A stretch of 40,605 nucleotides of DNA from Bacteroidota bacterium (GTDB taxonomy: Bacteria > Bacteroidota > Ignavibacteria > Kryptoniales > JAKASW01), in NCBI GenBank assembly GCA_021818875.1, contig JAKASW010000006.1:1-40605 (forward strand), in the 5' to 3' direction. Below, one piece after another: positions 1 to 29,004 of this stretch. Each line of letters starts with the position of its first letter. The stretch's first letter is position 1. Position numbers and translations under genes: made by a program. The notes under the pieces are model-generated. The model was not told where the DNA came from. It was given only the letters and a program-made list of their open reading frames with translations, and made no database searches.

Positions 1-426
1 AAGCCCGAGCATTCCTTCCTTGCACGCAATTGAGCAGTAATATCCAGCGGCGCCGAAGTGTTGGCTGTTCTTCACGCCTACCATCCCTACTCCGCATTCC
101 CTTGCGAGTTTTATCGCTTCTTTCATCGCCTTGACTCCCGCCACCTGACCTAATCCGTTATTCGCATCCAGCACTCCGGCAGCAGGCATGTTCTTCGTGA
201 ACGTCATCTCCGCTTTCGGATTTATTAGTCCCAACGAGATCCTTTTCAGGTATATCGGAAGTCTCGACACTCCGTGCGTGTCTATCCCTTTCAGGTTCGC
301 ATCGACAAGGCTGTCAGCAAGGATTGCAGCATCTTCATGGCTCACTCCCGACTTCTCTGTTAGATCTGTTACAAAACGGATTAGTTCTTCTGCCTTCACG
401 GCAACTGAGGCTGGTGCTTCTTTCAT
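1..426 (-). CDS. Ldh_2-family malate/L-lactate/(R)-sulfolactate dehydrogenase, N-terminal part (runs off left edge); ComC-like by context
   Basis: Minus-strand translation from ATG at 426: MKEAPASVAVKAEELIRFVTDLTEKSGVSHEDAAILADSLVDANLKGIDTHGVSRLPIYLKRI...VLDANNGLGQVAGVKAMKEAIKLARECGVGMVGVKNSQHFGAAGYY, with Ldh_2 family motifs (GxDTHGVSRLP, NSxHFGAAGYY). Adjacent to the SuyAB-like pair. Confidence 0.85.
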   Translation of the reverse strand, partial: MKEAPASVAVKAEELIRFVTDLTEKSGVSHEDAAILADSLVDANLKGIDTHGVSRLPIYLKRISLGLINPKAEMTFTKNMPAAGVLDANNGLGQVAGVKAMKEAIKLARECGVGMVGVKNSQHFGAAGYYCSIACKEGMLGL

Positions 427-555: not shown

Positions 556-1713
556 TTACGCGCTTCTATACAGCTTCGTTAGCACGAATTCTCTGTGCCT
601 GAGCACCTCCGCCGCTGTCAGCCTTCCCGACAAGGTCCGCAGCAACATATCCATCAGTGTATCTCCAGCCTGATCAAGCGTATGCTCAAGCGTCAGTACC
701 TTCTCGACGGAGACATCTATGTGTTCCGACATCGTGGCTGCCGTGTTCGGATTTGCCGTAAGCTTTATCACCGGCAATATCGGATTACCTATGATGTTTC
801 CCTGTCCCGTCGGGAACAAGTGAGCTATAGCACCACCCGCTGCAAACAGTGTTACGGCTTCTGCCGCCGCTGATGATGTATCCATGAAGTGCAAGCCTTT
901 TCCATGCGGTGCTTCAGCTGGTGCAAGGACTCCATCGACCTTCAGGTTCCCGATCTTCTGGATGTTCCCCATCGCTTTCTCTTCTATTGTCGTTAGACCG
1001 CCTGCTATGTTCCCCTGTGTCGGCTGTGATCCCAATAGATCCGCTCCTTGAGCTTCTATCATCGAATTGTAGTCGTTGAAAATATCCATAAACTTCTTTC
1101 GGAGTTCCGGAGTTTTCATCCTGTCTGCGACAACCTGCTCACCGCCGGTAAGCTCCGACGTTTCTCCAAACATTACCGTGCCGCCTGCGGCAACGAGTCG
1201 TTCAAAGACTTTTCCTACGGTCGGGTTTGCTCCAAGTCCTGAAGTCGTGTCTGATTCACCGCATTTTGTGCTGATCACGGCATCCGATACGTCAATCTCT
1301 TCTCTTTTGAGTTCAGACACCTTCTGTACCAGTCCTTTTGCCGCACGGGATGCCTTCTCAATCGTCTTGAAGTCTCCAGACTTCTCGATTGAAAAGACCT
1401 CAACAGGTTTCCCGGTCTTCGCTATTCCTTCGGCAACCTTGTTTGCCCAATTGGGCTCAATGCAGATTACTACCGCTGCCGCGACATTCGGATTCTTGCC
1501 GGTACCTATCATCGTATCGAAGAACAACTCAAGGTCCGCGCCGAACTGCAGTCTCCCATAAGCGTGCGGGAGTGGAAGTGTACCACTGACAAGGCTGGCT
1601 ACTCCTTCTGCAGCCGCGTTTGACAGATCGTCAACCGGTATTATCGCAACATGGTTTCTTGCTCCTACTGCACCGTTCTCACGGCGGTAACCCATAAACT
1701 TATATTTTGACAT
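556..1713 (-). CDS. suyB: UxaA-superfamily large subunit; best recognised as (2R)-sulfolactate sulfo-lyase beta subunit (SuyB-like) rather than altronate dehydratase
   Basis: 385 aa; [109 protein letters not shown]. The superfamily is clear; the SuyB call rests on remembered motif resemblance plus order with the small SAF subunit and a ComC-like gene. Confidence 0.7.
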
Positions 1714-1996
1714 TTTGCCACCTATTGCTTCTTACGTTATGTACGTGTACGTGCTGTCCGACAGAGATAGATTCCTTCGCCTGGCCTATGGTGATGCCGT
1801 ACTTCGTTACAACGTCGCCTTTCTTGATCGCCGTCAGTGCCACCTTATGGCCCAAAGGAATCGCTTCCTTTGCCTCTATGGTGAGCTGCGAGCCGTCGTT
1901 CAGACAGGAGCCGACGATCTTCTCTCCTGCCTTTATCTCAACTACCGCAACTCCCACGTTGTCCTTCTTCTCGTGAAATAGAAATTGTGGTCTCAT
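1700..1996 (-). CDS. suyA: SAF-domain small subunit, SuyA-like ((2R)-sulfolactate sulfo-lyase alpha) / UxaA N-terminal domain
   Basis: 98 aa: [54 protein letters not shown]...; overlaps the large-subunit start by 14 nt. Confidence 0.7.
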
Positions 1997-2798: not shown

Positions 2799-4283
2799 TC
2801 ACTCACCCGTTTCAACAACGACTTTGCCTATCTGCTCCGCGTCACGCCCCTCGATAGCTTCGCGTTCACGGGTCAGAGCTTCGGCCACCTCGTTGAAAGT
2901 CCGCGAAGGAGGTGGAGTCATGAAACTCACGACAACGAGCACAATTACGCCGGGCACCGCAAGAAGAACGGCGTTGTTGAAAGCAGAATTCGGAAAGAGA
3001 AACATGACCGTCAGTGAAACGACCGGCGTGACAACCTCGGCAGCAAGTGCACCCTGCCATGTGGAACGTTTCCAGAATCGGCCGAGTACCACAATAATTG
3101 CCAGACCACCCATTGTTACCGGCAAAAATTTTACAACAAAGCCGACGATTGTTCCAGCGTGGACGGCAACAACCGTACAGAACGCAAATGCGACCACAAG
3201 CGACAACCTCGCAGTGAGCAACGGCCGTTTCGGATAGCGGCCTGTGGCAAGCGGAAAGATGTGGCGCACAAAAAAAGAACTGACTGCCATGGCGTTTCCA
3301 TTAGCGCAGGAAAAAATCCCGGACGTGATTGACACGACGACAAGTGCGGCGAGCCATAATGGAAGGATATTCATCACAAGCCAGAGCAACGCCTCGTCGG
3401 GAGAATGCAGATTCGGATCAAGATGGAACGCATACATACCTGAGATGCCGATAATCCCGGAGAACATAATGACCGTGATCCCTGCAATCACCATCGATGC
3501 CCGTGCTCCGCCTTCGCTCCGGGAGCCATAAATGCTGAGGCGCCTTCCCGGATCCGCAAGTACGCTGAGCGACAACGCTGCAATCAGTCCGGCAATCTTC
3601 CAGCTACCATAAGAGCTTACCCCAAGGAATGAAAAGTAAGCGTGAGGGACAGCCCGCTGCAGTCCGATTATTCCGCCTGAACTTTGAAGCGCCACCACTG
3701 TCATCACAATGAATCCTGTCAGCAAAATTGCAGCCTGAAGGAAATCCGTGTAAACCACACTCTTGAACCCTCCCGGAATAGCTATGGCCGCGGTTATGAG
3801 CCCGGCAACGACAACGCTGATAGCTGGACTGAGACCTGTGACGGCAGCGATCACGCTCGCACCACCCATTATTTGAACTGTCAGCCAGCATAACTGCGAA
3901 AGGAACAAAGTAATACTGGAGAACTCGACCACGATGCGCTTATTCTCATAGTAGGATGCAATCTCTTCGCTCAAAGTCATAAACTTGTGCCGGCGCATTA
4001 CGGCAAACATAATCCCTGCGAGTGCAGTACCAAGGCCGAGTCCGATCGGATAGGCGCTCCCGGCCCAGCCATGGAGATAGGCGAGTCCCGAAGCACCGAT
4101 AATTACTCCTGTGCCGATGCTGCCGGCAGTGACATTGCCGGCCAGCACCCACGTCGGAAGGCTTCTTCCGCCGACGAGATAGTCCGTAGGTTTCCTGACA
4201 CGCCTCATCCAGAATATCGAAATCCCTAACATCACGACACCGTAGATCAAAAGGCCGAGTAGAACTGCTCCCTGTGTTGTCAT
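2799..4283 (-). CDS. Sodium:solute symporter (SSS/SSF family)
   Basis: 494 aa polytopic protein; SSF-like start (DYLVGGRSLPTWVLAGNVTAGSIGTGVIIGASGLAY) and many hydrophobic helices. Confidence 0.85.
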   Translation of the reverse strand: MTTQGAVLLGLLIYGVVMLGISIFWMRRVRKPTDYLVGGRSLPTWVLAGNVTAGSIGTGVIIGASGLAYLHGWAGSAYPIGLGLGTALAGIMFAVMRRHKFMTLSEEIASYYENKRIVVEFSSITLFLSQLCWLTVQIMGGASVIAAVTGLSPAISVVVAGLITAAIAIPGGFKSVVYTDFLQAAILLTGFIVMTVVALQSSGGIIGLQRAVPHAYFSFLGVSSYGSWKIAGLIAALSLSVLADPGRRLSIYGSRSEGGARASMVIAGITVIMFSGIIGISGMYAFHLDPNLHSPDEALLWLVMNILPLWLAALVVVSITSGIFSCANGNAMAVSSFFVRHIFPLATGRYPKRPLLTARLSLVVAFAFCTVVAVHAGTIVGFVVKFLPVTMGGLAIIVVLGRFWKRSTWQGALAAEVVTPVVSLTVMFLFPNSAFNNAVLLAVPGVIVLVVVSFMTPPPSRTFNEVAEALTREREAIEGRDAEQIGKVVVETGE

Positions 4284-4386: not shown

Positions 4387-5433
4387 TCAGAAAGATGTGG
4401 AGAAAAAATCCATCTCCTGCCCCCTGTTTTTGTCCATATATTTCATCGCGTCCTGAGTTGAATATCCTTCATGGACTATCATTGATAACGCCATGGCAAT
4501 GGCTCGCGGATCGTCGTCCTTCACAAAAGTCACGTTGCGGCCTACCATGGCACCACGAACGTTCGGAGCTGATTTCATCGCGGCAGCAAACGCCTTGATG
4601 GTGTCCAGAGGCGATTCCTTTGCAGGGCCTCCGAGAAGCAAAACCGGAAGCGTTGTGGAGCGCGCTATCCTCTCGAAGTCGCCGTTGTAAGAGATCTTAA
4701 GCCAGGTGCCGAGCGACGTTTCGCCCAATGCGGCCGCTGCCCCGACGTCGCGAACAAGCGTCTCAATATCTGTCTTGAATGCGTGACTTTTTTCTTTGCC
4801 CTCGACAGTCACCGGCTCAACGAAAGCGTATAAACCCAATCGACCAAGTTGTGTAATCGCATCCGCACATTCCTTTATCGTGACGAGTGAACCATGATCG
4901 GAAGGATCAAACCGGTACATCATCTTGCCACCGTCCAGGCTCATTTTCTTCAGGCTCTCAGGAGTGAATGACGTGAAACCGTCCTCCATCTCATACATTG
5001 ATCCGGCCTGTCCGCCCCTATTCATACACCCAGTTATTACTTTCCCATCAAGAAAGCTCTTCCCTGTTTTTCGCTCATACAGGTAGTCAACGATCAAGAT
5101 GTCCTCCACCATGTCGGTGGTGCCCATCACTCCGTCAAATTGTTCGCCAGTTATGACACGCAGGACGCGTCCGAGATATTCGTATCTGTCTCCCATCCCT
5201 ATCGCATCATTCCTAAGAGCTGTCACTCTTCTCCCCGGATGGTCGGCCGCAAGTATTACAAGTTTACCGTCCCTGGTGAGTTTGTTCCGCCTTTTCCTCT
5301 TCTGAGCATGTTTTACAACGGATTCGGGCTCCTCAACTCTTACGTCCGTAATCTGGTAAAAGAGCTTCTTGGGAAAGAAATCTTCAATCTTGAATCGATA
5401 ATTCGCCATGGTATTCCGTTTTTCATTGTTCAT
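4387..5433 (-). CDS. Cgl0159-family (beta/alpha)8 protein, putative class I (DeoC/LacD-like) sugar-phosphate aldolase
   Basis: 348 aa; GKLVILAADHPGRRVTALRNDAIGMGDRYEYLGRVLRVI...GVMGTTDMVEDILI...; start may be internal Met at 5409 (MANYRFKIEDFF). Confidence 0.7.
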   Translation of the reverse strand: MNNEKRNTMANYRFKIEDFFPKKLFYQITDVRVEEPESVVKHAQKRKRRNKLTRDGKLVILAADHPGRRVTALRNDAIGMGDRYEYLGRVLRVITGEQFDGVMGTTDMVEDILIVDYLYERKTGKSFLDGKVITGCMNRGGQAGSMYEMEDGFTSFTPESLKKMSLDGGKMMYRFDPSDHGSLVTIKECADAITQLGRLGLYAFVEPVTVEGKEKSHAFKTDIETLVRDVGAAAALGETSLGTWLKISYNGDFERIARSTTLPVLLLGGPAKESPLDTIKAFAAAMKSAPNVRGAMVGRNVTFVKDDDPRAIAMALSMIVHEGYSTQDAMKYMDKNRGQEMDFFSTSF

Positions 5434-5549
5434 AATAGTTCTGTCTCATTTCTTCGGTGGTTCCCGTTGAACTTGCGAGGCCCGCTAACCATCACCTTTC
5501 CGCTCAGCGTCAATGCGATACTCTTGCTGAGTTTCCATGATCGTAGCAG

Positions 5550-6593
5550 CTATTTAACTGAGAATTTATAGATCGTCTTTTGTTTGTACGCGTCGCCCGG
5601 CCTAAGAACCACGGATGGAAACTCCGGGTGGCTGGTCGAATCGGGAAAGTGTTGGCATTCCAGACAGAAGCCTGATCTCCTGCTTAAAGGCGAACCGTCT
5701 CTGCCATTTACCGTTCCGTCAAGATAATTGCCGGAATAGAATTGCAAGCCTGGCTGATCGGCGTACACGTCCATCAACCTTCCTGTAAACTGGTCATGAG
5801 CGCTCGCCGCTTTTCGTACCGAACCGTTGTAGTCACTGAGCTGAAAATTCTGGTCGTACCCTCCGGCAAACATGAGTTGCTCATACTCCGAGTCAATCCG
5901 ATCTCCAATTCGCGTTGGCACGCGGAAGTCGAGAGGCGTTCCTTCAACGCTGCGAACTTCCCCCGTCGGGATCGACAGATTGTCTGTAACAGTGAACTTA
6001 TCTGCGTTAATTGTCAAGATATGATCCACGATGGAATTCGCGGGCGAACCGGTAAGATTAAAATACCCGTGGCTTGTAAGATTGATAACAGTAGGCTTAT
6101 TGGAAACTGCAGAGTACATAATCACCAGCTCACTTTCTTCCGTGACTCTGTACTCTACCCTTACTTCCATTTTCCCGGGGAAACCCTCTTCCCCATCGGG
6201 ACTAATCAGGCTGAATTCCAGAGAAGGACCGCCAGAATCTTCCACAATTCTCGATACCCAATATTTCTTATCGAAACCAACTGTACCTCCATGCAGATGG
6301 TTACCTTTGCTGTTGACCGTCACCTGATGTTCTTTTCCATCGAGCTCGAACCTTCCTCGCGCTATCCTGTTAGCAAAACGACCGACTGTAGCACCGAGAT
6401 AGAATCTTCCACCTACAAAGTCTCTTAGGTCTGCATGCCCGAGAGTAACGTCTGCTATCTTTCCGGAGCTGTCGGGGACTTCGATCCAGGCAATGGCTGC
6501 TCCATAATTGATTATCGTGACTCTCATTTCGCTATCGTTGGTCAGTGCAAAAGACTCAAGATCACCGCCGATTTTGCTTTTGATTATCTTCAT
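5550..6593 (-). CDS. Aldose 1-epimerase (mutarotase)
   Basis: 347 aa; NYGAAIAWIEVPD, GATVGRFANRIARGRFELDGKEHQVTVN..NHLHGG, NLTSHGYFNLTG, DYDQNF-like (GGYDQNFQL), FYSGNYLDG - GalM family motifs. Confidence 0.92.
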   Translation of the reverse strand: MKIIKSKIGGDLESFALTNDSEMRVTIINYGAAIAWIEVPDSSGKIADVTLGHADLRDFVGGRFYLGATVGRFANRIARGRFELDGKEHQVTVNSKGNHLHGGTVGFDKKYWVSRIVEDSGGPSLEFSLISPDGEEGFPGKMEVRVEYRVTEESELVIMYSAVSNKPTVINLTSHGYFNLTGSPANSIVDHILTINADKFTVTDNLSIPTGEVRSVEGTPLDFRVPTRIGDRIDSEYEQLMFAGGYDQNFQLSDYNGSVRKAASAHDQFTGRLMDVYADQPGLQFYSGNYLDGTVNGRDGSPLSRRSGFCLECQHFPDSTSHPEFPSVVLRPGDAYKQKTIYKFSVK

Positions 6594-6601
6594 GTCATCC
6601 G

Positions 6602-7861
6602 CTACTGTAAAGAAGATTCTTGGACCTGACTGCTCTCCTTGGTTCTGCTTTGCTTTCGGACCAGCTTGCGACCACGAAGGACAGGGAACGATCTAATCGG
6701 TCCTCCGATTATCGGCAGGCAGTATTTTATAAATGCGTCGGTCACATAGTTTCCTTCTTCGTTCATAAACTCTGCCGGGAGCACCTTCTCAGCAATTGCA
6801 ACGGTTTCGAGAGGAACGCTTCCGACCGTGCATCGATAGACCTTCTTGTTCTGCCGGACAAGAGTCATCATTAATCCGTTCTTGCCTTTCAATGCCATTT
6901 TCACTCCGGACATCCCCACTAAGTACGCCTCTTTCTGATCGACAGTCGACACGTATTCAATCCCACTCCTGGCAGCGAGTCCGGGTTTTTCGCTCCTTGC
7001 TCTAATCTTCAATTTCCCGGAAATCTGTTCTGCAAGATATGATGCCGCTCCACCGGGCAAGCCTCTCCCAAATCCATCCCTCGCGGCCTCCGATCTGACC
7101 CCGCCAAGATAATTCCCGTTTTCATCCTTCAATCCTTCGCTCACAACTATCACAACTCGGCCCAGCTTGTCAAAAACGTTTGATGTATCCGACAAGATAC
7201 GTTCAACACTCGCTGGCATTTCTGGAATGTAGATTAGATTCGGTGCATCTCCTTCTACTTCTTTGGCGAGCGCCGCCGCCGCCGCAAGCCAGCCGGTATT
7301 TCTGCCCAATGTCTCTATGACCGAGATCGGCGGAGGAAGCGCCGCGACGTCAAGTCCGATTTCTCTAGTCACAGACGCGACGTACCTGGCTGCACTCCCG
7401 TAACCTGGAGAGTGATCTGTATATGCGAGATCATTGTCTATTGTCTTGGGGATCCCGATGACATTAAGCTCATATCCAATCCTCTCGGCTGCCTGTCCCA
7501 CCTTGTGCGCGGTATGCATAGAGCCATTGCCGCCGATGTAAAAGAAGTAGCGGACATCATACTTCTTCAAAGTCTCGACTATCCTGTCATAGTCTCCTTC
7601 CATCATCACTCTTCGACAAGAACCGAGAGCAGCGCCCGGCTTCTCGTATATTTGATTTAATGTCGATGGAAGCTCTTTCCCCAGATCGATCAAATCTTCT
7701 TCAATGATCCCGTTTACACCATGGAGTGCGCCAATAATCCTTCCGACCCTTCGCGAATCCGCGCGCTTTGCCTCTTCAATTATCCCGACTAAGCTACAGT
7801 TTATGACGGCTGTCGGGCCACCACCTTGAGCTACGAGCAAATTACCGACGGACATTATCAC
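6602..7861 (-). CDS. PfkA-superfamily phosphofructokinase-like kinase (ATP/PPi type not assignable)
   Basis: 419 aa; AQGGGPTAVINCSLVG, FYIGGNGSMHTAHKV, GIPKTIDNDLAYTDHSPGYGSAARY, VIETLGRNTGWLAA. Confidence 0.88.
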   Translation of the reverse strand: MIMSVGNLLVAQGGGPTAVINCSLVGIIEEAKRADSRRVGRIIGALHGVNGIIEEDLIDLGKELPSTLNQIYEKPGAALGSCRRVMMEGDYDRIVETLKKYDVRYFFYIGGNGSMHTAHKVGQAAERIGYELNVIGIPKTIDNDLAYTDHSPGYGSAARYVASVTREIGLDVAALPPPISVIETLGRNTGWLAAAAALAKEVEGDAPNLIYIPEMPASVERILSDTSNVFDKLGRVVIVVSEGLKDENGNYLGGVRSEAARDGFGRGLPGGAASYLAEQISGKLKIRARSEKPGLAARSGIEYVSTVDQKEAYLVGMSGVKMALKGKNGLMMTLVRQNKKVYRCTVGSVPLETVAIAEKVLPAEFMNEEGNYVTDAFIKYCLPIIGGPIRSFPVLRGRKLVRKQSRTKESSQVQESSLQ

Positions 7862-9263
7862 TTCTCTGCAAATAATCCTGGTACTTCACTGGCTTCATGA
7901 TTTCTATTCCAAGCCACGCACAAAACTCGTTTATTTCGGATGTGATGTCCTCATCGACGTAGGCTAAATGATGAGGTACAGCATTCACCAGAAGTGTGTT
8001 CATGTAATCTTCGCTCGATGTCGGCTGGCCGTTTATTCTGATGTCATTCATCCAGGAACTGCATCCTTTATAAATCGGTGATTCTCTCTCGTAGAATTTT
8101 CCGTTGGCTACAAATGCACTTGCATCGTTCTCCATAAACCGGAGGGCCGTAAGATCCGTCGGCTTCATCCTTCCGTCCCGGACCGTTCCCATCTTGTCAC
8201 GGTTGAAATGGTTTGCTAATCTGAATCCGCTTTTGTCGAACCAGTTCTTCGGTACGTTCCCGCAGTGCCAGATATAGATCGAGTCGTTCTTTTGATCCCA
8301 GCCCGACAGATCCATGAGGACTGTTTCCCTTCCACTCAAGTATTTCAAAGTCATCATCGAGATCGCCCCAAGCACATCCGTCTCAGTTGCTGCGATTGTA
8401 TTGTGATCAAGCTGGTTCAGTCTACCTATCGTCGAGCAAACCATAAGTCCAATTCTGCCGGGTACCTCCGGCCAGCATCGGAAGCTCACTGCAGATGCAT
8501 TATGCTTCGCAATGATTCTCTCGAACGCTACCTCCGCACCTGCAGATTTCGAAACATCTGCTTCCGAAGTGTCAGCTCCGTTGCTTTCTTTCACTATTTC
8601 ATTAACTCTGTTGGCCAATCCTCCGTCTTTCATTGCGGTCTCGTATTCGGCGTAGAATTCCTCAAGCTCGAGTTTCTCAACTGTAACTCCGAATATACTT
8701 CTGAGATTCTCTGAATCATATTTCAGATCATGATACCCAAACTCGGTGTCCCCAATTTGGAGTATCTTCGCATCCTTCAGGTTCTTTATGGCCGTCAACG
8801 CTCTAACGGTAACCTCGAAACGTCTGCCGAACTGCGCTGACTCCGCATCTCCGAACAGCCATTTAACCGGTCTGTCGTATCCGGGAGCATATCTGCCAGC
8901 AATGCTCACGTAGAGGTTCGTGGCACAGAATGAATTGAGAGGAAGAGGTCCACCTGTGGTGGACTCTTCGACCGCCCAAATTGCGAGTCTCGACGAGCAT
9001 GAGAAGAACGGCAATATCATGTTACCGTCCGCGAACGATGAGTTCTGTATGACCACGAAGTCCACATTCTTAGCTTCCAGATCTCTTGCAACCTCCTCTG
9101 CATCGGCAAGAGTCTCCATTCCTTTGTGGACCGGGATGAAGTCAAATCCCAATTCTTCACTCTTCTTCTCTATGACCTCGATACTATGATTTAACACTGA
9201 CCTCATATCACCCTTGAATATCGGTCGAAATGTTCCAGCAAGTGCTACCTTAAGTTTTTGCAT
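7842..9263 (-). CDS. L-fucose/L-arabinose isomerase superfamily sugar isomerase
   Basis: 473 aa; two-domain fucose-isomerase-like architecture; CWPEVPGRIGLMVCSTIGRLNQLDHNTIAATETDVLGAISMMTLKYLSGRETVLMDLSGWD; 3' end overlaps PFK-like start by 20 nt. Confidence 0.75.
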   Translation of the reverse strand: MQKLKVALAGTFRPIFKGDMRSVLNHSIEVIEKKSEELGFDFIPVHKGMETLADAEEVARDLEAKNVDFVVIQNSSFADGNMILPFFSCSSRLAIWAVEESTTGGPLPLNSFCATNLYVSIAGRYAPGYDRPVKWLFGDAESAQFGRRFEVTVRALTAIKNLKDAKILQIGDTEFGYHDLKYDSENLRSIFGVTVEKLELEEFYAEYETAMKDGGLANRVNEIVKESNGADTSEADVSKSAGAEVAFERIIAKHNASAVSFRCWPEVPGRIGLMVCSTIGRLNQLDHNTIAATETDVLGAISMMTLKYLSGRETVLMDLSGWDQKNDSIYIWHCGNVPKNWFDKSGFRLANHFNRDKMGTVRDGRMKPTDLTALRFMENDASAFVANGKFYERESPIYKGCSSWMNDIRINGQPTSSEDYMNTLLVNAVPHHLAYVDEDITSEINEFCAWLGIEIMKPVKYQDYLQRSDNVRR

Positions 9264-9602
9264 GACATATTACCTTTCGATTCAATGCTTATCCAACAGT
9301 TCTACAGCTTCCTCAAGCGAATCTGGACAGATTAAGTGTAAGAAATGAGTAATTCGAAATGACTTTTATGATCCTTACAATTAGGAACCAGTCTTAATCA
9401 GACAGCCGCGGACGCACCAATTTCTTACTAGTCAATCGGGTTGTCTCCATCGAGATTTTCCCTGCCGGCGACTTCGTACTTGACTTCGCCACCTCCATAA
9501 TAGTTAGGTTCACCAAAGGGTTGCAATTCTATAGACGCTTCTAGAAGTCAAGCCGAAAAGTGTAACCACGGCCAAAGGCATCACTTCGTGACAAATCACC
9601 AA

Positions 9603-9622
9603 CCTGCCTGGCGGTAGGCAGG
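9603..9622. repeat. Short inverted repeat cctgcct-ggcggt-aggcagg
   Basis: Perfect 7-bp arms (9603-9609 / 9616-9622) in a non-coding-looking 9264-9922 interval. Confidence 0.6.
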
Positions 9623-9922
9623 GCCACTAAGTATTGTACAACGACACCAATACCAAACATTTTTCTTTGAGCCTTTGAGTCTTTGTGGTTTCCAGAGGGG
9701 TTCTCTGCCTGGCATCTAGAGACGTTCGACCCGTCACCAACGACTCTGAAATCGTCTGCGATGAATGCAGATTTATCCAGTGACCCATCCGACAAACATG
9801 TTTTTGAAAGTATCAATATGCTGTCCTTATACCCATCGATGAGGAACTCGGATGGTCCGAATCATCCAATTCAAGATCTGCGAAGTATGGAAGATGGTTG
9901 ATGCAAGGACAAAGAGGTTGAC

Positions 9923-11374
9923 CTATAATTTGAATATTACGAGTTTGAGTTCGGTCATTTCTTCAATGGCGTACTTCAGACCTTCGCGTCCCATGCCGCT
10001 ATCCTTTACCCCACCGTACGGCATGTGGTCGACCCTGTAACTGGGCACATCATTTATCAACACCGCACCTGCCTTTATCTCACGCGCAGCCTTCATGGCC
10101 TTGCCTAGATCATTCGTGTATACCCCTGCATTAATACCAAAACGAGATGAGTTGACTAGTCTTAAAGCTTCATCAAAAGTGTCGTAGGTTGTTACCGCCA
10201 CAAGCGGGCCGAAGACTTCTTCGCTGAATACTCTCATATCCGGTTTCACGTCGGTGAGCACCGTCGCCATGATCGCGTTCCCATCCCGCTGGCCACCGGT
10301 TGCCACTTTTGCTCCACGCCTCCTTGCTTCGTCTATCCAATCCAGTACACGGGTGACATCCTTCTGTGTTATCAGAGCCGAAATATCGGTTGTATCCTCG
10401 AATGGATTTCCCACTCTCAGCTTCTCCACCGCCTCAGTAAGCTTCTTCACGAATTCTTTTTCGATCTTGTTCTGTATAAGTATCCTCTGCGTCGATATAC
10501 ACACTTGTCCCGAATGTGCATAGCCGCCCTGTACGCATCGGGTCACCGCCTCGTCGATCCTCGAATCGTCGTCAACAATCACCGCAGAATTGGAGCCGAG
10601 TTCAAATGTGAATCGCTTGAAACCGGCAACATCGCGGATGTGCTTGCCGACCTCGGGACTTCCGGTGAAGGAAACCATCACGACTCTTGGATCTTTCACA
10701 AGTTGTTCACCAACGGCCGAACTTCCTGTTACTACGTTAAACACCCCTTTGGGAACATCTGCTTTTTCGATCAATTCAGCAAGTTTGAGGGCGATGATCG
10801 GAGTTGAGGATGCCGGTTTTAGAACAACCGTATTGCCGGCCGCAATTGCAGGCGCTACCTTGTGCGCAACAAGATTAAGTGGTGCATTGAAGGGAGAGAT
10901 TGCCGCAATGACGCCAATCGGTTCACGAACTGTGTATGCCACCCTTCCCGAGCCTGTTGACACAGCGTCGAGGGGCACAGTCTCTCCATGAATCCTTTTT
11001 GCCTCCTCGGCCGCAATCGTGAACGTATCTGTGGCACGTGCGACTTCCCCTCGCGATTCTCTTATGACCTTGCTGTTCTCCGACGTGATGGTCTTCGCAA
11101 GTTCTTCGGAGTGCTCAGCAAGAAGCTCGGCTATGCTCTTTAAAAGCTTGTATCTATGAAATGATGTGGTCTTTGAAAAGCTCTCAAATGCTTCTGATGC
11201 GACATCTATCGCGGCGTCGATCTGTGAAGGTTCTGCAATAGGTACACGTCCCACAAGAGAACCATCATATGGAGATCTTACTTCAAAGGTCCTTCCAGAG
11301 CCCACCCACTCACCGCCGATAAACATCTTGTAAAGCTTCTCATCATTAGTCTTTTCGGTCCCTGTGTTATTCAT
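9923..11374 (-). CDS. NAD(P)-dependent aldehyde dehydrogenase (lactaldehyde/sulfolactaldehyde-type candidate)
   Basis: ORF 9923..11479; internal Met at 11374 (MNNTGTEKTNDEKLYKMFIGGEWVG) fits ALDH N-terminus. FELGSNSAVIVDD and catalytic-Cys region GGYAHSGQVCISTQRI present. Confidence 0.9.
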   Translation of the reverse strand: MNNTGTEKTNDEKLYKMFIGGEWVGSGRTFEVRSPYDGSLVGRVPIAEPSQIDAAIDVASEAFESFSKTTSFHRYKLLKSIAELLAEHSEELAKTITSENSKVIRESRGEVARATDTFTIAAEEAKRIHGETVPLDAVSTGSGRVAYTVREPIGVIAAISPFNAPLNLVAHKVAPAIAAGNTVVLKPASSTPIIALKLAELIEKADVPKGVFNVVTGSSAVGEQLVKDPRVVMVSFTGSPEVGKHIRDVAGFKRFTFELGSNSAVIVDDDSRIDEAVTRCVQGGYAHSGQVCISTQRILIQNKIEKEFVKKLTEAVEKLRVGNPFEDTTDISALITQKDVTRVLDWIDEARRRGAKVATGGQRDGNAIMATVLTDVKPDMRVFSEEVFGPLVAVTTYDTFDEALRLVNSSRFGINAGVYTNDLGKAMKAAREIKAGAVLINDVPSYRVDHMPYGGVKDSGMGREGLKYAIEEMTELKLVIFKL

Positions 11375-11381
11375 CTCAACT

Positions 11382-12365
11382 TCACTGACCACTTTTGGCT
11401 TCTCCTTTCTTTGGAAGCGGAAAATTAACATAATTGACCGCCGCGAGCCCCTCCAAGACTCTCCTGACATCTCCCGCAACTGAGTCGATTACTTTTTCTT
11501 GTGCTTCTACAGTGAGTCCGGCAACATGCGGCGTCAACACCACGTTCTCCATACGGTTCAACTCAGACTCGGGAGGCGGCTCTTTCTCACGGACGTCAAG
11601 TCCGGCGCCCGCAATGATTCCCTCTCTCAATGCGCGAACTAAGTCTCGCTCAACTATCAGCTCGCCCCTGCCTGTGTTTATTATGATCGACCCCATTTTC
11701 ATCAGTTGCAACTTTGAGTAGTTTACCATGCCGCGGGTCTCATCCGTCAGTGGAAGATGGCAGGAGATGACGTCGGCATTCACGAACACCTCATCCAGGC
11801 TCTTCAAATCTGCACCTGCTTCTGTCACTAAATATCCGTAACGCGAAAGGAATTTATCGTAGGCGATGATTTTCATTCCGAATGCTCTCGCCCTGATTGC
11901 CACCCGAGCACCAACCTTGCCCAGTCCGAGGATGCCGAGCGTCTTTCCAAATAGTTCATTGCCGAGAAATTTGAACCTATCCCAGTGCCCGTTCGCCGTC
12001 GAAAGATGGCCAGCCGGTATCTTTCTGTACAATGCAAGGATCAGAGCAAAGGCATGCTCTGCAGTTGAAATTGAATTCTCGTTCGGTGCATAACATACCA
12101 CAATCCCATGTTTGCTAGCTGCTTCAACATCGATGTTGTCGTAGCCGACTCCGGCACGCCCTATCACCAGGAGAGATTGCGTTGCCTCAAGCAGCTTGCC
12201 GTCAACCTTAGTTTGATTCCTTACGATCATTGCCTTAGCTTCGCTGATCCGTCTCGAAAGAGAGTCACGGTCCTTCCACAAGTCCTCGTCTCCAAGAACG
12301 TCATAAGTCTTCTTGAGCTCCTCGATCGCTTTTCCGCTTATCTTTTCTGTTATGATAATATCCAC
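11382..12365 (-). CDS. D-2-hydroxyacid dehydrogenase, SerA-like (candidate SlcC-type sulfolactate dehydrogenase)
   Basis: 327 aa; GRAGVGYDNIDVEAAS, LGILGLGKVGARVAIRARAFGMKIIAYD, INTGRGELIVERDLVRAL, GAGLDVREKEPP, NVVLTPHVAGLT. Confidence 0.88.
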   Translation of the reverse strand: MDIIITEKISGKAIEELKKTYDVLGDEDLWKDRDSLSRRISEAKAMIVRNQTKVDGKLLEATQSLLVIGRAGVGYDNIDVEAASKHGIVVCYAPNENSISTAEHAFALILALYRKIPAGHLSTANGHWDRFKFLGNELFGKTLGILGLGKVGARVAIRARAFGMKIIAYDKFLSRYGYLVTEAGADLKSLDEVFVNADVISCHLPLTDETRGMVNYSKLQLMKMGSIIINTGRGELIVERDLVRALREGIIAGAGLDVREKEPPPESELNRMENVVLTPHVAGLTVEAQEKVIDSVAGDVRRVLEGLAAVNYVNFPLPKKGEAKSGQ

Positions 12366-12557
12366 GTTGATGAGTCCTTTTCTGAAACAGAGCTGCGAAC
12401 ACAGTGCTCGAATCTCTTTCCCAGATTCGATTCTGCCAGATGCAGCTCATCGGTTTTAACTGAGTGAATATACATAGGCTCTTCAACCTTCAGGTGAAAG
12501 TTCTCTTATCGCATTCACCTCTTCGAATGCGTTCATCAGTCCATTGAAGCGATCCTA

Positions 12558-13403
12558 TCATGCAGGTTTCAGCGCGCTCTTTCGTCCCACACTGTGTCCC
12601 TTAAGGCCATGGAACCCGACCTATGAGATCTGCAAACCGCAGAGGCCTGCTATGTGACCCATCGTCGGGGGCAAAACTGCGCCGCCCAAGATAGCCGCTA
12701 CTGACAGTGAAGACACCTGGCTTTTGTAGATTCCGGTTCCCTCAAGCGCCAGCGAAAAAGTGTTCGACCAGCCGATTGAAGTGAAGAGCCCAACTCCAAC
12801 CACACACCACATGGCAACCCTTCCGCCAGCTACGATTGCTATCAAAAGCAAAACTACGGTTGCTCCAATAAAGATCGTCAATGTCCGACTATCGTTCGAT
12901 TGCCCAGACTGGAACAGGAGCCAGCACGCGAGTAGAATTGGTAGATAATTCTTCGTGACAGAAAAGCCTGACAAGATCGTAAGGACCACGAAAGCGATAA
13001 TAGGAATCAAGGCCAAGATGATCTGCTTGTTCCGCTTCCACATTTCGCTAAGTTCCGTCGCGCCCATGAACCGCCCGACAGCATTCCACCCAGAACAGTG
13101 AAACGAACTTACTCGCTTCAACCATACTTAATCCAGCGATGCTCTTCTGCCCCAGAAAGCTAATGATCGAACTCCAATCGAGACTTCTCCACCAACGTAC
13201 ATGAATATTGCAATGACTCCTAAGATCACGTGCGGGTAATCTAATGCTTGTGCGCCTTTTTCGATCTTTCCTTCGCCGACATGCGGCAAAAGAACGAAGA
13301 AGATTGCGGCCAGTATGATGAACACTTTGAAGGAAGCGAGGTAAGGCACCTTTACGGATTCTGCACCGTTTACACCAGATCTATTGAAATATTGGAAAAT
13401 CAA
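12558..13403 (-). pseudogene. FucP-family (glucose/galactose/fucose MFS) transporter remnant: 5'-truncated, two frameshifts, internal 3' deletion
   Basis: Fragments in three frames: KVFIILAAIFFVLLPH...HVILGVIAIFMYVGGEVSIG / SIISFLGQKSIAGLSMVEASKFVSLFWV / NAVGRFMGATELSEMWKRNKQ...GGAVLPPTMGHIAGLCGLQIS* then in-frame VGFHGLKGHS. Confidence 0.8.
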
Positions 13404-13415
13404 ATAGCCACCTTC

Positions 13416-15704
13416 CTATTTGCCGGAATCGATGGAGTAGGAGTACGGGAGGTCTTGCTTCTTGATTCCCCGGTTCTTATTGGGCACACTGCTCATCGTG
13501 AACCTGAGCGTGTCTCCTGACATGATATCATGGTACGTGATGTAATCTTTCGGATAGTCCACGCCGTTCAAGGTGGCTTTGGCTATGTACACATTCCTTT
13601 TGCTATTGTCGGGTGCCTCCACGACAAACTTCTTCCCGTTCTCAAGTGTAAGGATTACTTTCTTGAACAACGGCGAGCCGATAACAAATTGCCCGCTGCC
13701 GGGACAAACAGGATAGAACCCAATTGAAGAGAAAAGGTACCAGGCAGACATCGCACCTTCATCATCGTCACCGGGAAGGCCATTGGGATTCGGAGTGTAC
13801 AGCCACCTCATTGTTTGCCGCAGGTACCGCTGTGCCATCCACGGCTCACCGGTGTAGTTGTACAGATAGAGTGTGTGGAAGCTTGGCTCGTTCCCCATGT
13901 CATATTGTCCCTGACCAGCGATCATCATTTCCGTCATTTCATGGATCTGCCTGTGGTAGAACGAATAATCGAATGTCGGAAGCACTGTCATGAATGAATC
14001 GAGCTTTGCTATAAAAGCCTTATCTCCTCCCATGAGATTGATCAATCCCTGTGGATCGTGAAGCACACACCAGGTCCACTGCCATGCTGATCCCTCCGGG
14101 AAAACACCACCCCACTTGTCCACGATAAACGGAGTCTGCCACGTCCCGTTCAGGTTCCGCCCTCTCATGAAATTGTCCGACTTATCGAAGACGTTCCTGT
14201 AATTGTATGCCCTCTTCGCCAATGTATCTATCTCCGCTTTGGGGATGTGGAGAGCCTCCGCAAGCTTCATCGTAGCCCAATCGTCGTAAGAATACTCTAG
14301 AGTGCGCGAAACGCTGTAGTCTATGCCGACATTGCACGGGATATAACCAAGTTAATTATAGTACTTCGCACCCACTCTACCCAAGAAATTGTTAGGCGCC
14401 TCCCTGACACTATTCTTCATAATCCCCTCGTACAACGTCTTTATGTCATATCCCCTGATACCCATCAGGTAGGAGTCCGCAATTATCGATGCAGAATTAG
14501 ATCCGATCATCGAATTGCGATATCCCGGACTCGCCCATTCCGGGAGCCATCCGCCTTCCTTGTATGCATTAACCAGACCAGCCATCATGTGACTGTCCAC
14601 ATCGGGGTACATTACAGTCAGGAACGGAAATAGCGCCCTGAAGGTGTCCCAGAATCCGGTGTCGGTAAACATGTATCCCGGCAGAACCTTGCCGTTGTAC
14701 GGGCTGTAATGGACGATTTGATCAGACTTGTTGATTTCGTAGAACTCCCTTGGGAAAAGCATAGCATGGTACAGCGCCGTGTAGAACGTCGTCTTCTGTG
14801 CGTCCGTTGCACCTTCAATCCTGATCCTGCTTAACTGCTTGTTCCATACCTCCTTGTTCCTCTCCTTGATTTGGTCAAATGAGGCACCGCCAATTTCTCG
14901 ATCAAGGTTCAGCCATGCCTGATCATAGCTTATGAATGACGAGGCAACTTCTATCTCAATCACCTTTTTGTCGAGACCCTTAAACTCCACTACTGCACCG
15001 GCATGGTTTCCCTTCCTCTCCAGGCTGTTTTCATATAAACTCGAATCGTTCCATGTCCAAACCCTTTCGAATGGAGTCATGAACTTAAGAACAAAATAGT
15101 TGTGGAAATTAGCCGGCACCCCGCCGCTATTGTTCCGGCAATAACCAATGATTTCGTGTTTCCCAGGAATGACCTTTACGTAAGAGCCGTGGAAAAAGGC
15201 ATCAAGTACAAGATAGGACGGTTCGCCCGCCGGATAAGTAATCCTGAAATAAGCCGCTCGTTTGGTGGCTGTCATCTCGACCCACGTAGCATAATTGCCC
15301 AGGAACACACGATAGTAATATGGCTTTACGGTTTCTCTTTTGTGACTGAACCATGACGCCCTGTCGGCTTCCTGAAATTTCAATTTGCCCGTGACCGGCA
15401 TAATCGAGAAGGCACCATAATCGCCGATCCACGGCGACGGTTGGTGAGTCTCTCTGAATCCGACTATCTTGTTCTTTGTGTACTGGTATATCCAGCCGTT
15501 CCCCATCTTTCCGGTCTGCGGTGTCCAGAAGTTCATTCCCCACGGCAGCGCGATTGCCGGATACAGATTCCCATTCGACAAACTCGGCCGGGTCATCGTT
15601 CCAACCAACGGATTCACCCACCTGGTAAGATCCTCCTGTGACTTCTTCTCCTTGCCATAGATTACCATAGGAATGAGAAGGAGCAGCGCAAAGAAACTCT
15701 TCAT
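13416..15704 (-). pseudogene. GH92 family (alpha-1,2-mannosidase-like) glycosidase with a single in-frame TAA
   Basis: ORFs 15704..14352 and 14351..13416 share one frame across the TAA at 14352-14354: GAKYYN*LGYIPCNVGIDYSVSRTLEYSYDDWATMKLAEALHI. AGGAGG Shine-Dalgarno and signal peptide MKSFFALLLLIPMVIYG at start 15704. Confidence 0.85.
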
Positions 15705-15802
15705 TTTTCCTCCTGTCAAAATTTAACTCGGAATTGTCATTAGAATTACGAAGATCAAAGCCATAAACGAATCACACTAATCTGCACTCTTCAAAACAAA
15801 TG

Positions 15803-15915: not shown

Positions 15916-17067
15916 TCAGCCCTTAAGAACGATTACGTCTTGCATGATTCTATTCTTTTTTTCCGTGAGATTCTCCAGCAGGGTATCAAAATCATTCTTG
16001 AATCTCTTCAAGCCGTCATCCAGCAATCGTTGGGACACCGTTACCATCTCAACGCCGCACAATTTCAGATAAATAAGGTCTTTCTCCACATTTTCCATAT
16101 CCGATTCGATAGAATCCTCAGCCACTGTACCATGATTGGCAAAAGCAGCTATGGTTTCCTCCGGCAGGGTGGTCACGGTGTTGCGCCCAATTAGAGGATC
16201 GACATATCTAACGTCGCTGTACTTCGGGTTCTTGGTACTCGTACTCGCCCAAAGCGGCCTCTGCACCATGGTATCTTTTTGTGCCAGCGCTTCCCATCTT
16301 TCTCCGGAGAAAATCCTCTTGAAAGCCTGATATGCCTGTTTTGCATTCGCCACCGCGGCCTTTCCCATTACATCATTTATATCAAATGAATGGTCCCAAC
16401 CGATCTTCGAAGCTGCTCTCTCTGAAAGTAAACCATCCACTAATGTATCGATTCGACTGAGGAAAAAGCTTGCGACGGACCTGATCCTGTTGACAGGTTT
16501 ACCTTCAGCCACTCTTCTTTCCAGTGCGTTGATGTAGGCATCAGTGACAGCCTTGTAGGTTGCAAGAGAGAATATAAGAGTAATGTTTATGTTAATACCT
16601 TCATAGAGCATTTGTTCGATGGCAGGCAACCCTTCGGGCGTGGCGGGAATTTTTATAAAGGAATTCTCACGATTCACTTTTTTAAAAAGTCTCCTGGCCT
16701 CGGCCATAGTGCCCCCGGTATCATTTGCAAGGTGTGGAGATACCTCCAGACTTACAAACCCGTCGACGCCGTCAGACTTGTCGTACACCGGGCGCATGAT
16801 GTCACAAGCGTTTTGTACGTCTTCAACAGCAAGCTCTTCATAGACTTCCTTAACAGGTCTCTTCTCTTTGAAAAGTTTTACTATTTGATCGTCGTAGGCG
16901 TCGCTATTTGAAATTGCCTTGTTGAAGATACTGGGATTCGTCGTGACTCCGCGAAGTCCTTCCTCGCGAACCATTCGTTCTAGCTCGCCGCTCGTAATTT
17001 TCAATCTTGCTAGGTTATCGAGCCAGTAGCTCTGACCGCACTTAATAAGTTCCTGTAATCTATTCAT
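15916..17067 (-). CDS. tal: Transaldolase (long Tal type)
   Basis: 383 aa; GLRGVTTNPSIFNKAI, DGFVSLEVSPHLANDTGGTMAEA, NSFIKIPATPEGLPAIEQMLYEGININITLIFSLATY, ASFFLSRID. Confidence 0.92.
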   Translation of the reverse strand: MNRLQELIKCGQSYWLDNLARLKITSGELERMVREEGLRGVTTNPSIFNKAISNSDAYDDQIVKLFKEKRPVKEVYEELAVEDVQNACDIMRPVYDKSDGVDGFVSLEVSPHLANDTGGTMAEARRLFKKVNRENSFIKIPATPEGLPAIEQMLYEGININITLIFSLATYKAVTDAYINALERRVAEGKPVNRIRSVASFFLSRIDTLVDGLLSERAASKIGWDHSFDINDVMGKAAVANAKQAYQAFKRIFSGERWEALAQKDTMVQRPLWASTSTKNPKYSDVRYVDPLIGRNTVTTLPEETIAAFANHGTVAEDSIESDMENVEKDLIYLKLCGVEMVTVSQRLLDDGLKRFKNDFDTLLENLTEKKNRIMQDVIVLKG

Positions 17068-17130
17068 TGTTACTCCTAAGAATTCTCAACGATTCATGAG
17101 TGGGAAATTTTCCAGGCACAATTTCGGCCT

Positions 17131-18399: not shown

Positions 18400-18417
18400 G
18401 ATTTGTTTTCTTTCTGG

Positions 18418-20880: not shown

Positions 20881-20917
20881 AAGGTACTCCTGTTTTTTCT
20901 TGATTCAATTTATGATT

Positions 20918-22291: not shown

Positions 22292-22300
22292 TGAAACCTC

Positions 22301-23587: not shown

Positions 23588-23638
23588 CGTGCTTCGCCTC
23601 CCCTCATGTAACAATCAGAATATTGAGACCTTGATCGC

Positions 23639-24919: not shown

Positions 24920-24953
24920 AAGCTTCTCACAAACAAAAAGGCACCATTAGATT

Positions 24954-26580: not shown

Positions 26581-29004
26581 TCAGACCTTGCCTTCGGTCT
26601 GGCCTCGTTTCAAATTGATCGTCAGGGAATTTGTTCCATATAGTGAATGTGTGGCCTCGACTCTAATTTGTCCGGAACTGTTCGGAGTACCCTTGACCCA
26701 TATTGCACCGACTCCTCCTGTCTCAGCCAACTGGAATGGGTTTACACCAACCATCTCGCCCGGTCCCGTAAGCTTGAAGGTGATCTCTCCGCCTGCAAGA
26801 AGACGAGGCGTGCCGTATTTGTCCACGACTTTGAACACCAACCTGGTTGCGTCCGTCCCGTCTCCGATCAGCTCCTCGTCGTCTGCCTGAAAGATGAACT
26901 TGTCCTGAGATGGGTCAGATGAATATGTTTGCGACATAACCAACTTGTCTCCGGCATATCCTTCAATCTTGAGTTCAGGATGGTTCGTACCCTTGATTTC
27001 CAGATCAGCAAAGAACGGAGGAAAATTCAGATTCGGGAATCCCATTGTATCGGGGTGAAGCGTCGAATGATGGTTGCCGTCCACAAATAACTGCAAGGTG
27101 TCACAGTTGGAGAATATGGCGACATGTTTGCCGGGCCCGAACGGAGTCCTTGCGCCGAAGTCCCAGTAGAAATTCGGCCCGATCACAGGTCGCACTTCAG
27201 GGCTGACTTGTGATCGATAAAACGAGGCTCCCAGTTTGGGGATCCTGAAGAAATCTGCCACGCCAGGGCACTTCACTCCATTGTAGGCGTTCAACAGACT
27301 GCCATAATCATAAGCGCACCAGCCGATAAGTCCCGATATGCGAGGGTTGCCACCTGCCCTGCTATGTGCCTGAGCATGCCAGATTGCCTGTTCTTCCTGC
27401 AGCCATACCGCTCCAGCCCGGCGGTATTTTGCATTCATACCCTCGTTTTGATATTTGTAATCTCTTTGTCCAACCGCCTCCGTGATGAGGTACGGGACTC
27501 CGGGAGGCGAATCGGCAATCTTTGGGCTGCCGTCAGGTTCTGACACGTAATCGTCATAGGCAAAGACATCCTCGCTCCATCCGGTCTCCGATGTGGTGGT
27601 CATGGTACCCGAACTCTGTCGGGAGTTGTCCAGCGCTTTTGCGATGGCTCTCGTTTTCTTGTACAGATCGACGTGGTTCGGTGCCTCGTTGGGACGAGTA
27701 CCCCAAATAATTATCGAGGGATGGTTGCGGTCCCGAATTACCATCTCCCGGACATCTTTCAGCAAATGCTCCTGCCACAATTCGTTTCCGACGTATCCCC
27801 ATCCCGGTACCTCTTCCCAGACCATAAGTCCGAGTTCATCGCAGACATCCAGAAATGCTTCCGATTGAGGATAATGAGAACAACGAACCATGTTGCAGTT
27901 GAACTCATCACGAATCATAATCGCGTCGTGCCGCATCACTCTCGCCGGCATCGCAAATCCCACATAGGGAAAAAGTTCGTGCCTGTTGAGGCCGAAAATT
28001 TGCAGTCTACTGCCGTTCAGGAAGAAGCCGTCAAGCTCGAATCTGGCATCGCGCAAACCTGTTCGGACCAGGTAGTCATGAACCGGCTCCCCGTTCACGA
28101 TGAGGGTCGCTACAACATCGTAAAGGTACGGTTCATTCGGGCTCCATAGCTTGATATTGCCTAACTTCGACAGCACGAGTTTAATTTCGCTCTTTCCTTC
28201 GCTCTCGATTTTTACTTTCTCACGAGTTCCAGCGACTACCTTGCTGCGGTTACGGAGTTCTACCTGCAGCTCAACATTCTTAGGCACGGCACCCGCTGCA
28301 TTAATGGTACAGTTGACCTCTATTCTCCTACTAGCATCCAAGACGTTTACCGGTTTCGCGAAGACATCCTCGATGAAGATCTGCGGCACCGCCTGCATGT
28401 AGACATCTCTAATGATTCCTCCTGGCTCAAGGTAATCAATCGATGCGGGTCCTCCAGGAGATCCTTCCGGCGGTACGTTGCTCCACCGAGAGTCGACTTG
28501 CACTGCCAATATGTTACCAGTGTCGGTGACCTCATCGGTGATTTCATACCTCGAAGGCAGATAACCGCCAAGGTGCTGGGGAAACGCGTGTCCGTTGACA
28601 ACCGGAGTCGTACCGACCATGACTCCCTCGAAATTCAAGAATACACGTTTCCCTTTGCTACCTGGTGGAAGGTCAAAATGTCTGCGATAGATCCAAAGAT
28701 GTTCCCAAGTATCGGGGTTCCAGTTATCCCAGGATAACTCCGTCACGCAATGTGGCAGCGTGACTTTCGAGAAACCGGAATCATCGAACTGCGGGCTCAG
28801 CGCATCCGGGTTGAACTTCCCACCGAAAAGCCAGTTCTGATTCATTCCAAACCTTAAACTGGCCGGGCCTGTTTTTGGAAGGAATGCACCACCGAGGCTG
28901 CCGTAGCGTATTAGTTTTGGACCGTATGCGAGAACTGCCGTCCCGAGCGCAACTGTGCGCATGAACTTTCGTCTCGACAAATCGGTGTTACCTGTTTTTT
29001 CCAT
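26581..29004 (-). CDS. GH2-family glycoside hydrolase (beta-galactosidase-like) with Tat-like signal
   Basis: 807 aa; LSRRKFMRTVALGTAVLAYG; N-terminal sugar-binding domain, GLNRHELFPYVGFAM, MVRCSHYPQSEAFLDVCDELGLMVWEEVPGWGY, RDRNHPSIIIWGTRPNE. Confidence 0.87.
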   Translation of the reverse strand: MEKTGNTDLSRRKFMRTVALGTAVLAYGPKLIRYGSLGGAFLPKTGPASLRFGMNQNWLFGGKFNPDALSPQFDDSGFSKVTLPHCVTELSWDNWNPDTWEHLWIYRRHFDLPPGSKGKRVFLNFEGVMVGTTPVVNGHAFPQHLGGYLPSRYEITDEVTDTGNILAVQVDSRWSNVPPEGSPGGPASIDYLEPGGIIRDVYMQAVPQIFIEDVFAKPVNVLDASRRIEVNCTINAAGAVPKNVELQVELRNRSKVVAGTREKVKIESEGKSEIKLVLSKLGNIKLWSPNEPYLYDVVATLIVNGEPVHDYLVRTGLRDARFELDGFFLNGSRLQIFGLNRHELFPYVGFAMPARVMRHDAIMIRDEFNCNMVRCSHYPQSEAFLDVCDELGLMVWEEVPGWGYVGNELWQEHLLKDVREMVIRDRNHPSIIIWGTRPNEAPNHVDLYKKTRAIAKALDNSRQSSGTMTTTSETGWSEDVFAYDDYVSEPDGSPKIADSPPGVPYLITEAVGQRDYKYQNEGMNAKYRRAGAVWLQEEQAIWHAQAHSRAGGNPRISGLIGWCAYDYGSLLNAYNGVKCPGVADFFRIPKLGASFYRSQVSPEVRPVIGPNFYWDFGARTPFGPGKHVAIFSNCDTLQLFVDGNHHSTLHPDTMGFPNLNFPPFFADLEIKGTNHPELKIEGYAGDKLVMSQTYSSDPSQDKFIFQADDEELIGDGTDATRLVFKVVDKYGTPRLLAGGEITFKLTGPGEMVGVNPFQLAETGGVGAIWVKGTPNSSGQIRVEATHSLYGTNSLTINLKRGQTEGKV

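Follow-up and report, generated by a model that had tools for sequence, protein, structure and literature searches.

In a 40,605-nt stretch of DNA from the genome of an uncultured Bacteroidota bacterium (contig JAKASW010000006.1, assembly GCA_021818875.1; the whole stretch is hereafter the window), we identified a gene set that probably encodes a sulfoglycolytic Embden–Meyerhof–Parnas (EMP)-type pathway for a 6-deoxy-6-sulfo-hexose, either sulfoquinovose (SQ) or sulfofucose, a rare product of acidophilic archaea, together with desulfonation of the resulting sulfolactate. We place the probability of this reading, which is drawn from sequence, at about 0.8. It is built on gene content, conservation, linkage and residue conservation, and the reactions and substrates named below are all predicted from protein family and genomic neighbors. 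The genes concerned are as follows.

11382..12365, minus strand: D-isomer-specific 2-hydroxyacid dehydrogenase, SlcC-like candidate (PF02826)
9923..11479, minus strand: aldehyde dehydrogenase (ALDH), predicted sulfolactaldehyde dehydrogenase (PF00171, 545 bits); the true start is probably 3' of the listed TTG
7842..9263, minus strand: FucI/SftI-superfamily aldose-ketose isomerase, 473 aa, predicted sulfohexose isomerase (NF048012, FucI ligands, orthologs)
6602..7861, minus strand: PfkA-superfamily phosphofructokinase (PFK; PF00365), predicted sulfoketohexose 1-kinase, with a pyrophosphate (PPi)-PFK subfamily background and an ATP-type GGNG motif
5550..6593, minus strand: GalM-type aldose 1-epimerase, predicted sulfosugar mutarotase (PF01263, 270 bits; TIGR02636 galM, 320 bits)
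4387..5433, minus strand: Cgl0159-family class I aldolase, predicted sulfoketohexose 1-phosphate aldolase yielding dihydroxyacetone phosphate (DHAP) and sulfolactaldehyde (PF22649, PDB 3fok)
2799..4283, minus strand: SSF sodium:solute symporter, putatively for sulfosugar or sulfonate uptake (PF00474; 83% ortholog in SuyAB locus L069)
1700..1996, minus strand: SuyA-like sulfolactate sulfolyase small subunit, SAF domain, 98 aa (PF08666; 42–47% identical to Cupriavidus/Paracoccus SuyA)
556..1713, minus strand: SuyB-like sulfolactate sulfolyase large subunit, GD_AH, 385 aa (62% identical to Cupriavidus and Paracoccus SuyB)
1..426, minus strand: N-terminal part of a ComC-like sulfolactate dehydrogenase (Ldh_2, PF02615), ending at the contig edge

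The isomerase, kinase, mutarotase and aldolase genes are co-directional and closely packed. The isomerase and PFK open reading frames (ORFs) overlap by 20 nt (about 14 nt if an internal ATG is the PFK start), and gaps of 8, 116 and 103 nt separate PFK from GalM, GalM from the aldolase, and the aldolase from the symporter. The ALDH and 2-hydroxyacid dehydrogenase genes lie upstream on the same strand; SuyA, SuyB and ComC follow the symporter on that strand after an 802-nt gap, with the SuyA and SuyB ORFs overlapping by 14 nt. A preliminary description of this DNA, made from the sequence alone, had reported the four-gene cassette and symporter with these positions and spacings, and the ORF coordinates agree with it. 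Its family assignments are likewise borne out by Pfam and NCBIfam profile scores (PF22649, 215 bits against a cut-off of 27; PF01263, 270 bits; PF00365, 174 bits; PF00474, 113 bits). The statement that no FGGY or PfkB kinase occurs locally holds, because the genome's seven PfkB and six FGGY matches all fall on other contigs, and the PfkA-like protein is supported as the sole kinase within the cassette. Where the same description considered the substrate unassignable, we differ: the flanking SuyA/SuyB/ComC genes (1–1996) and the ALDH and hydroxyacid dehydrogenase genes (9923–12365) point to a substrate class. Its view of the cassette as a route to the function of the Cgl0159 aldolase is supported, and its inclusion of 6-sulfo sugars in a panel of candidate aldoses was a good guess.

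In the pathway we propose, the GalM-type protein would anomerize the sulfohexose, the SftI/FucI-like isomerase would convert it to a 6-sulfo-ketohexose, and the PfkA-type kinase would phosphorylate this at C1, probably with ATP. The Cgl0159 aldolase would then cleave the sulfoketohexose 1-phosphate to DHAP and sulfolactaldehyde, which the aldehyde dehydrogenase would oxidize to (S)-sulfolactate. From there, passage through sulfopyruvate to (R)-sulfolactate may be the work of the SlcC-like and ComC-like dehydrogenases, and SuyAB would release pyruvate and sulfite from (R)-sulfolactate.

At the level of individual enzymes, the isomerase had no Pfam match, and its sole NCBIfam match was NF048012 (SftI sulfoquinovose isomerase) at 152 bits; among other members of the phylum, the same profile scored 163 bits in G200, 156 in G107 and at most 99 in all others. 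Its residues E294, D318 and H432 align to E337, D361 and H528 of Escherichia coli FucI, which we take to be the metal ligands. The 6-phosphate-binding site of E. coli PFK, presumably formed by R162, R243, H249 and R252, is altered in the cassette PFK: in a gapless alignment R162 is replaced by Pro and H249 by Leu, and the equivalents of R243 and R252 are retained, which rules out a loss of all 6-phosphate residues. Judged from sequence, such a site with two arginines fits a smaller anion, for example a sulfonate, and is not proof of one. The genome holds two further PFK homologs that are merely 26–29% identical to the cassette PFK, and the latter is therefore likely a specialized protein rather than the glycolytic one. 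Dependence on PPi, suggested by the PFK subfamily, is disfavored by the GGNG motif, which places Gly at the donor-specificity position, although a second PPi-like residue, Lys139, is present; a Gly of this type marks ATP-using PFK enzymes (PMC12203962). The aldolase combines the PF22649 profile match with a class I lysine, Lys246, which aligns with the corresponding lysine of Cgl0159 (PDB 3fok) and MJ0400 and is the predicted Schiff-base residue; Lys246 and the GGP and GRN motifs are kept in seven orthologs. The ALDH is of the lactaldehyde/succinate-semialdehyde dehydrogenase (SSADH) type by profile comparison. Sulfolactaldehyde dehydrogenases bind the sulfonate through residue pairs, Arg171/Arg289 in RlGabD and His164/Asn280 in SlaB (PMC10599462); read by eye, our ALDH carries the SlaB-type His (FNA...H) where RlGabD has Arg171, and neither Arg nor Asn at the second position. 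Of the Bacillus sulfolactaldehyde dehydrogenase pair it shares one residue of two. AlphaFold models of the isomerase and PFK (predicted local distance difference test scores of 53 and 57, from shallow alignments) were of insufficient quality and were set aside.

The desulfonation module is a split SuyA (SAF)–SuyB (GD_AH) pair that falls within the SuyB sequence clade. SuyB is 60.7–64% identical to UxaA-family proteins of Rhodococcus, Cupriavidus pinatubonensis, Paracoccus, Methylobacterium and Sinorhizobium; beyond this group there is one intermediate at 58.8%, and then other UxaA proteins at 41% or less. In C. pinatubonensis the SuyA–SuyB pair lies beside hpsN and hpsO, and two Paracoccus plasmids carry, in order, GntR, SuyA, SuyB, a tripartite tricarboxylate transporter (TTT), a hydroxyacid dehydrogenase, an Ldh-family oxidoreductase and a sulfate exporter, the gene order of the published SlcC/ComC/SuyAB module (PMC12421959). 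Both linked dehydrogenases have same-strand counterparts here at the family level, a ComC-like protein by SuyB and an SlcC-like one at 11382–12365. The partial Ldh_2 protein has NF040650 (L-sulfolactate dehydrogenase) as its best NCBIfam match, and its full-length relative in locus L065 scores 290 bits with this profile against 194 for Paracoccus ComC, both below the 500-bit cut-off. The hydroxyacid dehydrogenase is of the phosphoglycerate dehydrogenase type, like Paracoccus SlcC, to which it is 37% identical.

A scan of 85,000 species genomes recovered nine loci (L036–L044) in eight other Bacteroidota metagenome-assembled genomes, with isomerases 66–84% identical to that of the window. The usual order is GntR, hydroxyacid dehydrogenase, ALDH, GH2, isomerase, PFK, GalM and Cgl0159 aldolase; L042–L044 instead run hydroxyacid dehydrogenase, GntR, isomerase and PFK, followed by GalM and aldolase within contig reach, and L037 is without GalM. 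The gene order is conserved in these loci far beyond chance. In a separate co-occurrence sample of 297 genomes of the phylum, orthologous isomerase, aldolase (72%) and PFK were confined to the window's genome and G200. The preliminary description had suggested such a search and had counted an absence of the association from relatives against itself; because gene order and orthologs do recur, that objection falls away, and the cassette is supported as a real, conserved catabolic unit.

Linkage between this cassette and SuyAB is likewise apparent. Orthologs of the isomerase and of SuyB (at least 80% identity) occurred together in two of the 297 genomes and separately in none (p = 2e-5, phylogeny ignored), and the SuyB homologs in the other 68 matching genomes were at most 36% identical; neither gene had an ortholog in the two genomes of the same genus. 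Six of the eight other cassette carriers encode SuyB at 80–95% identity, and in a seventh SuyA is 90% identical and the contig stops within SuyB. Physical association extends to related loci: in L068 (G301:C42) the same aldolase (73%) lies 170 nt upstream of SuyA–SuyB–ComC, the 83% ortholog of the window symporter sits in SuyAB locus L069, and GntR proteins beside SuyAB loci are 62–73% identical to those of the L036–L041 sugar operons. L068 also lies near rhamnose isomerase, kinase and aldolase genes.

Relative to its counterparts, the window locus is rearranged, as remnants of the DUF6259 protein that accompanies relatives' SuyAB loci and of a second Cgl0159 aldolase are present at 2194–2664 and 12894–12992. 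Three further features correspond to operon members of the relatives.

9380..9849, minus strand: what remains of the operon's GH2 gene, located between the isomerase and ALDH genes (tblastn, GH2 C-termini of L036/L037/L039/L041)
12383..12490, minus strand: what remains of the operon's GntR regulator gene (53% identity by tblastn to the 36 C-terminal aa of L037 GntR)
26581..29004, minus strand: intact GH2 beta-galactosidase-like exo-glycosidase with export signal, ortholog (59–63%) of the GH2 inside relatives' operons

Several observations weigh against a sulfosugar pathway. The isomerase score of 152 bits is far under the NF048012 cut-off of 700, and the ALDH and hydroxyacid dehydrogenase belong to promiscuous families. 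The conserved glycosidase is a GH2, outside the known sulfoquinovosidase families, and the YihQ sulfonate-binding residues R301/W304/Y508 were kept by no GH31 examined that aligned there (one fragment partial). SuyAB–ComC occupies a separate locus in most relatives, a search upstream of both modules turned up no operator common to them, and G303 carries merely a 38% SuyB homolog, within an ALDH–ComC–SuyA–SuyB operon with a PF03601 exporter. In the window itself the ComC gene is incomplete, cut by the contig end, and a SuyZ-type exporter (PF03601) was not found in its genome.

Within the sulfosugar pathway, sulfofucose (6-sulfo-D-galactose) is our first guess as substrate and SQ a close second, both unproven. 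We propose sulfofucose from Thermoplasmatales glycoproteins because of the beta-galactosidase-like GH2, the alpha-mannosidases and the acid-mine-drainage relatives. The intact GH2 matches beta-galactosidases over its full length (333 bits to PDB 5ldr/5euv versus 150 for the next; GalA 255 bits), the operon GH2 is beta-galactosidase-like throughout, and the mutarotase is galM-type; the GH2, however, may act on something other than the sulfosugar. Relatives' SuyAB loci adjoin GH92, GH125 and GH47 alpha-mannosidases, which fit mannose-rich N-glycans. Three bin prefixes among the relatives (DBS, WY, MAS) coincide with mining areas sampled in a survey of acid mine drainage at 90 sites (PMC12153355), an environment in which Thermoplasmatota, with Proteobacteria, are the dominant phyla (PMC9061769), and Thermoplasma N-glycans contain 6-C-sulfofucose (PMC12448462, PMC12421959); the habitat argument, however, concerns the relatives' bins and not the window's own genome. 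Sulfofucose would then pass through sulfotagatose and its 1-phosphate to DHAP and sulfolactaldehyde, with the GH2 as a beta-sulfofucosidase on archaeal N-glycans, a tentative assignment that we hold at somewhat less than even odds. A fuller scenario, in which acid-mine Bacteroidota eat sulfofucose-bearing Thermoplasmatales N-glycans by means of a GH2 beta-sulfofucosidase and an EMP-type route for sulfofucose, with Cgl0159 as sulfotagatose-1-phosphate aldolase, and mineralize the sulfonate within one organism, would be the first of its kind and is doubtful. Separately, L074 (G297:C60) has GH125, GH47 and GH94-like genes directly upstream of SuyA and thus combines genes for N-glycan degradation with a sulfolactate lyase.

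SQ, as the alternative substrate, could be freed by a sulfoquinovosidase that is unlinked or of an unknown kind, or could come from archaeal N-glycans bearing SQ; those of Sulfolobus, for example, carry SQ beside mannose. It is the abundant sulfosugar, and the nearest named isomerase is an SQ isomerase; set against this, the GH31 proteins examined include none of YihQ type and the linked glycosidase is beta-galactosidase-like, so that we regard SQ, too, as a possibility short of an even chance.

That the cassette degrades a non-sulfonated sugar, with SuyAB serving unrelated sulfolactate uptake, appears improbable. Variants would include a 6-deoxyhexose yielding lactaldehyde and lactate, galactose passing through tagatose 1-phosphate to glyceraldehyde and glycerate, and a pentose yielding glycolaldehyde and glycolate; the resemblance of the ALDH to lactaldehyde dehydrogenase, the generic hydroxyacid dehydrogenase, the suitability of GH2 and GalM for galactose and the rhamnose genes near L068 accord with these. 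The sulfosugar pathway better accommodates the co-occurrence and physical linkage of the cassette with SuyAB–ComC, the two arginines of the C6-anion site retained in the kinase, and the SQ isomerase as best isomerase match. Decay of the cassette to a non-functional state in this genome is very improbable: despite the GH2, GntR and aldolase remnants, a GH92 alpha-mannosidase-like gene (13416–15719, minus strand) broken by a single in-frame stop (a recent pseudogene or an assembly error) and an MFS fragment at 12621–13121, every pathway ORF within the contig is intact and SuyB is 94–95% identical to intact orthologs.

Elsewhere in the window, a sulfatase adjoins an anaerobic sulfatase maturase (23639–26513, minus strand), suggesting attack on sulfated glycans too. 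Consecutive genes at 15916–23614 (minus strand) encode a transaldolase, a zinc alcohol dehydrogenase, a fused 2-oxoacid dehydrogenase E1, an E2 and a mannitol-dehydrogenase-like protein, possibly a separate operon.

Among described systems, the closest is sulfo-EMP2 (SqvD, SqiK, SqiA; Bacillus urumqiensis, Megamonas), which shares a PF00365 kinase and, by prediction, a FucI-superfamily isomerase and aldol cleavage to DHAP and sulfolactaldehyde; on profile evidence (174 bits) the kinase corresponds at the family level. A PfkA-type sugar kinase in this setting is thus not unprecedented, SqiK being also a PF00365 protein (PMC9594981). Sulfo-EMP2, however, uses a class II PF01116 aldolase (SqiA), absent among the scanned cluster ORFs, in place of the class I Cgl0159 protein, and an AllA-like mutarotase (SqvB) in place of a GalM-type PF01263 one; it has been reported only from Firmicutes (PMC12890257), whereas here the host is Bacteroidota and sulfolactate would be desulfonated further. 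The sulfo-EMP pathway of E. coli (YihR, YihS, YihV, YihT) has a PF01263 mutarotase and the reaction order proposed here, but its isomerase, kinase and aldolase come from different families (PF07221/PF00294/PF01791), and our GalM is 20% identical to YihR. The sulfofucolytic Entner–Doudoroff pathway (Paracoccus wurundjeri, 2025) likewise joins cleavage to sulfolactaldehyde with SlcC/ComC/SuyAB sulfite release in one organism; its upper part comprises a dehydrogenase, lactonase, dehydratase and KDSGal aldolase rather than an EMP-type isomerase, kinase and aldolase, no PF13378/PF02746 sulfogalactonate dehydratase was found among the scanned ORFs, and an ALDH is present here whereas that cluster is without a proven one. 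Sulfolactate sulfolyase clusters of Cupriavidus and Paracoccus share SuyA–SuyB, the SlcC-like and ComC-like dehydrogenases and, in relatives, GntR, but have a SuyZ (PF03601) exporter and TTT, where this genome lacks SuyZ and has an SSF symporter instead. Since the aldolase family, mutarotase combination, phylum and SuyAB linkage are all missing from the description of sulfo-EMP2, we consider this a known kind of pathway in a new form, best explained as a sulfo-EMP variant and not sulfo-EMP2 as defined. On plasmids, the best isomerase relative (29.5%) is in L078 (Deinococcus peraridilitoris pDEIPE01), with a PfkB kinase, LacD-type aldolase, SSADH-type ALDH and a YicI-like GH31 without sulfonate residues, and we dropped this locus as evidence for sulfo-EMP; a more distant relative (24.6%) in L079 (Parasedimentitalea marina pW43B) lies beside GntR, a LacD-type aldolase and a DhaK-type kinase.

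No paper linking Cgl0159 to sulfosugars came up in a literature search that combined the two, and our analysis offers a concrete, testable role for this aldolase family, which had no assigned role in sulfosugar chemistry. The predicted pathway would add Bacteroidota to the sulfosugar degraders and would encode sulfosugar cleavage and desulfonation together, a pairing described as unusual (PMC12421959). Should the substrate be sulfofucose, these loci would provide candidates both for an EMP-type route and for the sulfofucosidase, sought without success in the 2025 study of Paracoccus, and sulfonate cycling in acid mine drainage may be linked to feeding on archaeal glycoproteins.

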